A stretch of 32,563 bases of DNA from Candidatus Zixiibacteriota bacterium (GTDB taxonomy: Bacteria > JAAXHH01). Shown piece after piece: positions 29,217 to 31,777 of the stretch; the first letter of the stretch is position 1; every line of letters begins with the position of its first letter. The DNA lies in NCBI GenBank assembly GCA_016867335.1, contig VGJU01000018.1, forward strand, positions 1 to 32,563, given 5' to 3'. Both the position numbers and the translations under genes were made by a program. The notes beneath the pieces are model-generated. The model did no database searches. It worked only from the letters and a program-made list of their open reading frames with translations, and was not told the origin of the DNA.

Positions 29217-29244
29217 TTGACTTTCCGGCGTTTCCGTCTAAAAT
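29217..29244 (+). promoter_or_regulatory. Sigma70-like promoter upstream of the CSD-VOC gene
   Basis: TTGACT, a 16-base spacer and TAAAAT give a close match to consensus. It would start a leader of about 115 bases before ATG 29367, long enough to hold the hairpin at 29274-29329. Confidence 0.6.
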
Positions 29245-29273
29245 AACCCCATTGCCCTGCAACCTCAAACAGA

Positions 29274-29329
29274 CATAGCCCACCGGAGAGTCGGAAGGTC
29301 TTCAAAATCAGACGACTTCGGGGTCTATG
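29274..29329 (+). promoter_or_regulatory. Structured leader hairpin upstream of the CSD-VOC gene
   Basis: Nested complementary segments are visible: CATAG (29274) with CTATG (29325), CCG..AGTC with GACTTCGG, and GTCT with AGAC around a TCAAAATC loop. Together they form one long imperfect hairpin inside the predicted 5' leader, 37 bases before the start codon. Cold-shock genes often have regulatory leaders, so a thermosensor-like role is plausible but not shown. Confidence 0.45.
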
Positions 29330-29366
29330 GGAAAAATCTACCCTTCTGTAACGGAAGCCATAGTCC

Positions 29367-29981
29367 ATGCCACAGGGTGTCATCACACGTTTGAACCCGG
29401 CACGTGGATTCGGTTTTGTAAGCAATCCCGAAGGCAACGATCTCTTTTTTCACCGGACCAACGTCAGGGACACCCCTTTTTCGAAGTTGCAGATCGGCGA
29501 TCGCGTAACATACGATTTACAGCATACGGATCGAGGTCCGCGTGCCGGCAACCTGCAGATGTTTGCATCGGCGGTTCAGTTGCAGGTCAATCTCGCGGTA
29601 AGCGATCTGTCTCGATCGGTTGGTTTCTATGTGCAGACGCTCGGATTCAGACAGGTTGCCGAACACCCCGGATACACCCTTGTGCAACGGGGGGCACTGG
29701 TTTTAGGACTAAAAATGGACGATCTACTCTGGCATCCGGCGCTCAAAGATCGTTCGGCAAGCGATTTGGTCCGCGGCGTAGGGACAGAACTGGTCCTCGA
29801 AGTATCCGACATCGACGAGTTTCACGCGGCCATACAAAACGCGGGTCTTGTCATTCAGGAACCGCTCAGGGAACAACCTTGGGGGGCGCGGGATTTTCGT
29901 TTGTTGGACCCCGACGGGTATTACTGGCGCATCTCCTCGCCACGCCAGTTGACTGAACAGATCGCTATTTCCGAAGACTAA
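29367..29981 (+). CDS. Fusion of a cold-shock domain and a VOC (glyoxalase/bleomycin-resistance) domain
   Basis: This 204-aa protein starts at ATG 29367. Residues 1-67 are a complete cold-shock domain: GVITRLNPARGFGFVS with RNP1 (GFGFV), NDLFFH as RNP2, then KLQIGDRVTYDL and GPRAGNL. Residues ~72-192 are a VOC-fold domain: VNLAVSDLSRSVGFYVQTLG, GTELVLEVSDIDEFHAAIQ and RDFRLLDPDGYYWRIS. The canonical metal His of glyoxalase I is not seen at the start of the VOC unit (N75), which favours a binding rather than a metalloenzyme role. The CSD should bind single-stranded RNA or DNA. There is no frame break at the junction, so the fusion looks real. It stands alone behind a good promoter and a structured leader. 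Confidence 0.85.
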   Translation: MPQGVITRLNPARGFGFVSNPEGNDLFFHRTNVRDTPFSKLQIGDRVTYDLQHTDRGPRAGNLQMFASAVQLQVNLAVSDLSRSVGFYVQTLGFRQVAEHPGYTLVQRGALVLGLKMDDLLWHPALKDRSASDLVRGVGTELVLEVSDIDEFHAAIQNAGLVIQEPLREQPWGARDFRLLDPDGYYWRISSPRQLTEQIAISED

Positions 29982-30093: not shown

Positions 30094-30963
30094 ATGTAGC
30101 AGCCACTGGAATTTATTCCCGACGAAATTCCGGAGACGGTAAAGCGTCAGGAAATCGAAAACGGTCACAAAGGGCGCAGGGGATTGCCCCGCCCGCCCGA
30201 CTATCTCTGCTACCTAACACCGGAACCGCTGGCTGTAGACGGTCGACTCGACGAGGCCGTCTGGCAGCGCGCCAAATGGCTGGGACCGTTTGTAGATATG
30301 GAAAAAGGAACTCCCACCGAATACGATACGCAGGTCGCTTTTTTGTGGGAAGATACCTACTTTTATACCGGATTCCGGCTTGAAGAGCCGGATGTGTTCG
30401 GCTATGAAACCAAACGCGACGGCGGCGTAGGCGGCGACTGCGAAGTAGAACTTTTTATCCTCGGCGAAGGCGTGTATTACGAACTCGAACTCAGCGTACT
30501 TAACACGATCTACGAAGTTTTCTGGACATGGTTTCAGTCGCTGGCGGAAAGAAACGATCTGGCGACGCTGGACGAACTGTTCAAGACGCGGCGCATGACC
30601 TACGGTGGTCTGACCGACGACTATCCGGGCAGACACGGCAGTTTCGACTGGGATTTTCCGGGGATACAAACTGCGGTATGGATCGATGGGGCGCTCAACT
30701 GTCGGCGTATCCGCGATCGAGAATGGTCCGTAGAGATCGCGCTTCCCTGGTCTGGGTGGACCGATCTTGCCAGAGGACGGCGCTCAATCCCGCCAAAGGA
30801 CGGAGATGTCTGACGCATAGGTTGCTCGCGTGTAGAGCACTGGCGTGACGAAGAAGGCAATATACTCCGAGGACGCGACTGGTCGATCTGTCAACACGGC
30901 AAAATTCAGATGCACGTGCCCGACCGGTGGCCGTACGTCATCTTTTCCGAGAAAACGGTTTAA
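30094..30963 (+). pseudogene. CBM9-like carbohydrate-binding protein with two in-frame stop codons
   Basis: One frame from ATG 30094 to TAA 30961 encodes a 289-residue CBM9-like protein, but it has TAG as its second codon and TGA at 30811. Before the track ORF it reads QPLEFIPDEIPETVKRQEIE; the middle has EPLAVDGRLDEAVWQRAKWL and TQVAFLWEDTYFYTGFRLEE; after the TGA it continues RIGCSRVEHWRDEEGNILRG and VPDRWPYVIFSEKTV. The TGA sits where a Trp (GDVWRI) is expected, a TGG-to-TGA change. There is no signal peptide, as in many CBM9-like proteins annotated near sugar enzymes. AGGGAAG precedes the ATG. TGA and TAG end other genes here, so recoding is unlikely. Confidence 0.82.
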
Positions 30964-30985: not shown

Positions 30986-31777
30986 ATGGAAGTTCTCGGC
31001 ATCGACATTGGCGGCACAGGCATCAAAGGCGCGCCGGTCCATATAGAAACCGGCGAACTGACTGCAGAGCGGCATCGCATCCTGACGCCTCAGCCCGCCA
31101 CACCGGAGTCCGTTTTGCAGGCCGCCGGCGAGTTGATCAAACATTTCAACTGGAACGGTCCTATCGGCTGTGGGTTTCCGGCGGTCGTCAAAAACGGTGT
31201 CATGCAGACCGCCGCCAACGTGGACGCCTCGTGGATCGGCGCGGACGCGGTGGCTACGCTCAAAAAACTTACCGGAAAACCCGCAGTATTTCTCAACGAC
31301 GCGGATGCCGCCGGGCTGGCCGAGCTCAGATTCGGCGCAGGCAAAGGACGCAATGGGCTTATCGCCATTGTGACGCTTGGAACCGGTATCGGAACCGCCT
31401 TTTTTGTCGATGGGACGCTGATCCCCAATACCGAGTTGGGGCATATCGAATTGAGGGGCAAGGACGCTGAACGCCGGGCCGCGGAGAGCGTGCGTATCCG
31501 CAAGAACCTGACTTGGAAAAAATGGGCCAAAGGTGTAAACGAATATTTTCAGCGATTGGAGGCACTGCTCTGGCCGGACCTGATCATCGTCGGAGGCGGG
31601 GGAAGCAAGAATTTCGATAAATTTGCCCCGTATCTGTCGCTCAAAACCGAAATCGTCCCTGCACAACTACTCAACGAAGCCGGTATCGTAGGGGCCGCCC
31701 TCGCTGCCGTCCCTGCCACGCCGGCAAGACGCCGCGCCGCTTCATCCGCTCGCGCGACCCAGTCCAAAACCAAGTGA
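30986..31777 (+). CDS. ppgK: Polyphosphate glucokinase (ROK family)
   Basis: ATG 30986 follows AAAGGAG; the track start at 30845 reads through the CBM9-like tail. The 263-aa protein has the phosphate motif DIGGTGIKG (7-15), [10 protein letters not shown], catalytic [12 protein letters not shown] (D105) and the second loop [11 protein letters not shown], all typical of polyphosphate-dependent glucokinase rather than ATP-only ROK kinases. It makes glucose 6-phosphate from glucose in the cytoplasm. The last ~20 residues are a basic Arg/Lys/Ala/Ser tail beyond the conserved fold, possibly helping polyphosphate binding. Its stop overlaps the GTG start of the methyltransferase gene. Confidence 0.9.

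Follow-up and report, generated by a model that had tools for sequence, protein, structure and literature searches.

A cold-shock domain fused to a VOC domain is conserved with polyphosphate glucokinase in Candidatus Zixiibacteriota

A cold-shock domain (CSD) and a VOC domain are joined in a single protein that is encoded on a stretch of 32,563 nucleotides from a Candidatus Zixiibacteriota bacterium (hereafter the window), one contig of a 431-contig genome. The fusion is genuine, and represents a new combination of two well-known domains. We tentatively interpret it as a phylum-specific, ligand-responsive RNA-binding protein, a reading based on the observed fusion, its conservation, the selection acting on it, the loss of the VOC metal site, the fold match and the neighbouring gene for polyphosphate glucokinase (ppgK). 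The usual view of cold-shock domains is that most bind RNA or DNA constitutively; a CSD coupled to a small-molecule pocket would, if the reading is true, let the level of a metabolite act directly on RNA binding.

The fusion gene (29367-29981, forward strand) is a single uninterrupted ORF of 204 amino acids plus a TAA stop codon; the interval that first drew attention, 29217-29981, extends from the first base of the -35 box through this stop codon. The CSD covers residues 3-64 (29373-29558, forward strand; Pfam PF00313, 9.1e-14, 51.5 bits, cut-off 27), and the VOC/bleomycin-resistance-like domain residues 73-188 (29583-29930, forward strand; Pfam PF00903, Glyoxalase, 7.5e-13, 49.4 bits, cut-off 20.6). 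Both domains score well over their cut-offs, and no family besides CSD and VOC was matched in the ORF. The two folds are separated by a linker of only about 5 residues (66-70), the most variable segment of the protein, with 0-20% identity to the window compared with 56-69% within the domains. The single frame, the near absence of a linker and the two Pfam matches bear out the original prediction of a CSD running straight into a VOC domain. An indel at the domain junction, a concern raised at that stage, is excluded, since 14 of 14 full-length orthologues have the same two domains, and the occurrence of the same fusion in the separate assemblies of 14 other genomes rules out an assembly or indel artefact at this point. 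The structure model of the full-length protein is of moderate quality (pLDDT 73.4).

The phylum was sampled with 16 genomes from one order, three families and five genera (g1-g5). Fifteen of them encode the fusion as one open frame (14 of full length and one truncated where its contig ends), with 56-63% protein identity across genera, so that the possibility of the two domains occurring as separate genes alone can be set aside; in the sixteenth (G012), ppgK starts at base 71 of its contig, which places the expected position of the fusion off the contig. The gene is single-copy in all 15 genomes with a visible locus, which suggests that it is important to these uncultivated bacteria. Averaged over 44 pairs within genus g2, dN/dS is 0.105 (0.038/0.359) for the CSD part and 0.13 (0.042/0.323) for the VOC part; both halves are therefore maintained, and purifying selection acts on the two domains alike. 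A tree of the VOC domain meant to date the fusion was too poorly resolved to give a date.

The closest relatives outside the phylum are stand-alone genes for a CSD or for a VOC domain. A profile of the fusion that recovered all 15 phylum members as a positive control, and that could miss a distant CSD-VOC fusion whose VOC part comes from a different subfamily, detected no relative of the fusion when about 1,380 further bacterial genomes were searched (five draws), the sole matches being three VOC-only genes (L073, L117 and L118). Plasmids, phages and viral contigs yielded single-domain or weak matches only and no relative of the fusion; the places on Rhizobium plasmids that span more than 80% of the query are weak alignments with 23% identity (E 6e-6) and lie under genes annotated as a VOC protein and an AraC-family regulator. 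Matches across both domains in the Actinomycetota Sinomonas and Glutamicibacter raised the possibility that CSD-VOC fusions arose there independently; this was ruled out, as the ORF sequences are double-VOC proteins. Public relatives that bear names are MAGs labelled Latescibacterota or Gemmatimonadetes. A literature search that left out most subscription journals found no prior description of a CSD-VOC fusion; as far as that search reached, its earlier characterisation as an undescribed system is upheld, and its phylum-wide conservation together with ppgK is, as far as we found, likewise undescribed. As a separate observation, a different CSD fusion is present in genome G041, where one open frame (L023:1084-1695) combines a DoxX domain with a C-terminal CSD, both over their Pfam cut-offs.

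All 14 full-length orthologues match PF00313 in their CSD, and this domain is a variant (residue numbers in the CSD follow B. subtilis CspB). RNP1 (RGFGFVSN; 29403-29426, forward strand) is complete, and RNP2 (LFFHR; 29442-29456, forward strand) has F30 replaced by R; W8->R and F9->L replacements are present in every orthologue. The original description of a complete CSD with both RNP motifs is corrected accordingly. The fusion resembles CspA and CspB (PDB 2lxj and 1csp) in its CSD fold, in RNP1 and in the retained set F15 (Y in genus g2), F17, F27, H29 and F38; it differs from them in the three replacements, in being fused to a VOC domain and in standing apart from its genome's main cold-shock proteins, which have genes of their own. 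None of R8, L9, H29 and R30 varies among the 14 full-length orthologues. In classical cold-shock proteins such as B. subtilis CspB, W8, F9 and F30 are important for binding single-stranded DNA and RNA; because all three are replaced, RNA binding by the fusion CSD could be weak or altered. The same genome encodes two further CSDs, both ordinary W8/F9 cold-shock proteins, and the fusion is therefore not the housekeeping cold-shock protein. The R-L pair at positions 8-9 also occurs in other CSDs, in Paceibacter (L047) and Dehalococcoidia (L048). A defence role like that of the Retron Se72-type CSD effector was ruled out (NF038236, 42.9 bits against a cut-off of 82); a PADLOC match to CSD_V covers the CSD part alone, and no reverse transcriptase is present among the annotated neighbour genes of the fusion.

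The variant CSD also raises the question of a ribosomal target. HPFcold, a ribosome hibernation factor composed of S30AE and CSD (PDB 9t0z), likewise carries an R-L-pair CSD fused to a second domain, and shows that a CSD in a fusion protein can have a specific RNA target, as its CSD binds the 16S anti-Shine-Dalgarno sequence (PMC13392368). By analogy, this precedent is a lead to the RNA target of the fusion. The variant CSD might thus dock on rRNA, for example on the 16S anti-Shine-Dalgarno, with the VOC domain reporting a metabolite; HPFcold shares with the fusion both the R8-L9 pair and the pattern P-D/E-G-E...NV...F..L.VG, and is the second-best PDB match for residues 3-47 of the orthologue L007. 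We nevertheless regard a ribosome-associated factor as quite improbable: H29-R30 of the fusion corresponds to N-A in HPFcold, ordinary cold-shock proteins outscore HPFcold over the whole CSD, and the fusion lacks an S30AE domain (PF02482), for which the genome has a protein of its own. The two architectures also differ in that the CSD is N-terminal in the fusion, with VOC as its partner, and C-terminal in HPFcold. Among 30 S30AE loci, no HPFcold-type protein with a similar CSD was found.

The VOC domain on its own gives a confident structure model (mean pLDDT 86.7) with the paired beta-alpha-beta-beta-beta fold of the VOC superfamily, and this model matches many VOC structures at a Foldseek probability of 1.00. 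Its highest-ranking fold matches were FosA structures and TioX, and glyoxalases were matched too; TnmS1, TnmS3, ZbmA and BLMA are among the best 50 fold matches. Within the PDB, TioX (3itw) gives the best sequence match (3.2e-9) and is also the best fold match of the full-length model. Known metal-dependent VOC enzymes require glyoxalase-type ligands. E. coli GloA has its metal ligands at H5, E56, H74 and E122; in an alignment with GloA, the corresponding residues in the fusion are Q73 (H in 1 of 14), G114, E141 and R188, with G114 placed by eye from the neighbouring VLGLK/VIELT strand, where the automatic alignment gapped. The His/Glu ligand set of metal-dependent VOC enzymes (glyoxalase I, FosA, extradiol dioxygenase) is absent in the fusion. 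The original prediction had noted a missing first metal ligand; the loss is real and is not confined to the first position, the whole set being gone. Catalysis by the VOC domain, whether it uses no metal or holds one in an unusual site at E141, and with the CSD positioning the enzyme on nucleic acid or regulating it, would agree with the invariance of E141, with the E and R kept in standalone relatives and with the fold matches to FosA and glyoxalases; three of the four metal positions are, however, occupied by non-ligands (G114, R188 and, in all orthologues but one, Q73), and we judge an enzyme to be very unlikely.

Since all the usual metal ligands are lost, the VOC part resembles a binding domain of the TioX or bleomycin-binding type. 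TioX itself has changed metal ligands (V, Q and E at three aligned positions), and those of the fusion are absent; TioX, BLMA, ZbmA and TnmS3 share with it the VOC fold, about 25% identity and an expected small-molecule pocket. The lost ligands are compatible with drug binding that involves neither metal nor catalysis and, together with the likeness to drug-binding VOC proteins, fit the small-molecule-binding module proposed at the outset, as judged from sequence. Drug sequestration has been proposed for several VOC proteins, and TioX could be involved in sequestering thiocoraline (PMC6804068). The fusion could accordingly be imagined as a resistance protein that sequesters a drug or toxin, with the CSD as a tether that shields nucleic acid from damaging compounds, and the PDB matches to TioX, TnmS3, ZbmA and BLMA and a weak NCBIfam bleO score speak for this. 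The NCBIfam drug-resistance cut-offs are, however, not reached (bleO 34 bits against 275, BLMA 23.6 against 140, FosA 24 against 250), and identity to TioX is only about 25%. Unlike the fusion, TioX, BLMA, ZbmA and TnmS3 lack a CSD and come from antibiotic gene clusters or from resistance elements. In the fusion, E141 and R188 are present; its gene, single-copy and part of the core set of the phylum, lies beside that for polyphosphate glucokinase, and the annotated neighbours show no sign of mobility or of a biosynthetic cluster. Sequestration of this kind thus appears improbable, and the stress-resistance role suggested earlier is weak, because the gene is tied phylum-wide to ppgK and not to resistance or antibiotic genes.

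A retained ligand site is suggested by the VOC residues that are invariant in the orthologues (E141, W172, F177, R178, D181, G184, Y185, Y186, W187 and R188), most of which are common to standalone VOC relatives. From the alignment and a predicted monomer, E141, W172, F177, R178, Y185, Y186, W187 and R188 can be assigned to a putative, pocket-like set. Standalone VOC proteins with the signature ELVLEV...PW..DFR.LDPDGYYWRI occur in Chloroflexota, Microbacterium and other bacteria and are 36-40% identical to the VOC domain of the fusion; they share its E and R where the metal ligands would have been, and differ from the fusion in lacking a CSD and in their varied neighbourhoods. Examples with both the signature and the lost metal site are found at L117:1510-1893 (genome G1080), L042 and L044. 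The ligand of the fusion, once found, would inform this broad standalone group, which shares the pocket signature. These residues also bear on the idea that the protein is an RNA or DNA chaperone in which VOC serves solely as a dimerisation scaffold, bringing together two CSDs for avid single-strand binding with no ligand involved. VOC domains commonly dimerise, and the lost metal site and the well-conserved CSD would suit such an arrangement. Yet conservation is as strong in the VOC part as it is in the CSD, and the pocket-type residues E141, R178, R188, W172 and Y185-W187, common to close standalone relatives, exceed what a dimer needs; a mere scaffold therefore seems rather unlikely.

The genomic context of the fusion is provided by ppgK (30986-31777, forward strand; NF045942 equivalog, 4.5e-101, 337.6 bits, cut-off 250), which lies downstream of the fusion in 10 of the 10 loci examined, whereas the genes upstream vary among loci. 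In the six genomes examined from genus g2, the two genes overlap by a 4-base RTGA stop/start that is preceded by an AGG-type ribosome site; this overlap strongly suggests that the two are transcribed as a unit and that their translation is coupled. The link between the fusion and ppgK is at the level of the operon only, and in one phylum only. Between them in the window lies a gene with weak CBM9-like similarity, below cut-off (30100-30810, forward strand), which is conserved in four genera. The window copy of this intervening gene (30095-30811) looks broken, with an ATG followed at once by TAG and a frame that ends about 50 residues short of the end of its relatives; the copies at L075, L076 and L077 are intact.

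Our tentatively preferred reading, a ligand-responsive RNA-binding protein, could operate as follows. The VOC domain would form a homodimer and bind a small metabolite, organic or aromatic, with neither metal nor catalysis involved, in the mode proposed for bleomycin-binding proteins and TioX, and the variant CSD of each subunit would bind single-stranded RNA or DNA. Occupancy by the ligand would alter the spacing or the affinity of the two CSDs, and hence the expression of the target transcript. The likeliest target would be the protein's own operon with polyphosphate glucokinase, with the proposed outcome that sugar phosphorylation is linked to the level of the metabolite. In its most novel form, in which the VOC pocket is an allosteric switch for the CSD and the protein, as a metabolite sensor of a new RNA-binding class, a counterpart of a riboswitch that tunes the ppgK operon across the phylum, the idea is an unlikely one.

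Transcription of the fusion gene may start from a sigma-70-like promoter (29217-29244, forward strand) with a -35 box TTGACT (29217-29222) and a -10 box TAAAAT (29239-29244). As a pattern, the near-consensus promoter of the original prediction was confirmed: it scores 10 of 12 matches, and two sites of this quality were found in the region compared with 0.6 expected from shuffles. The -35 core CTTGACTTT recurs upstream of the orthologue in the four genera g1, g3, g4 and g5, starting 91-151 bases before the start codon, and is present only once in the whole window; for these reasons the promoter is probably real. The core was not found upstream of the orthologue in genus g2, and the -10 region is less clear than the -35 across genera, so that -35 is the only conserved promoter element.

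The 5' leader that follows (29250-29366, forward strand) shows no sign of a conserved or unusual structure. The nested hairpin originally described does appear in the predicted fold of the window leader; neither unusual stability (z-score -0.57 against shuffles) nor conservation accompanies it, as orthologous leaders differ in sequence, length and fold (z from -0.5 to +1.2). Pairing is predicted to be essentially unchanged from 5 to 55 °C, and the suggestion of temperature- or stress-dependent control by the leader did not hold up; an RNA thermometer or cold-shock leader is not supported, given the same z-score, the non-conservation and the steady predicted fold. There is no Rfam match in the window, and no conserved structure or obvious target element was seen in the leaders. 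The probable Shine-Dalgarno sequence GGAAG (29353-29357, forward strand) is predicted to be paired, somewhat more strongly than in shuffled sequences (fraction 0.04 at 37 °C), and no hairpin like the one pairing it turned up in the other genera that have this promoter. In genus g2, a short palindrome, GGTTC....GGAACC, the recurrence of which may reflect merely close relationship, is located just before the start codon of the fusion (for example in L009, L010 and L012, before position 1501).
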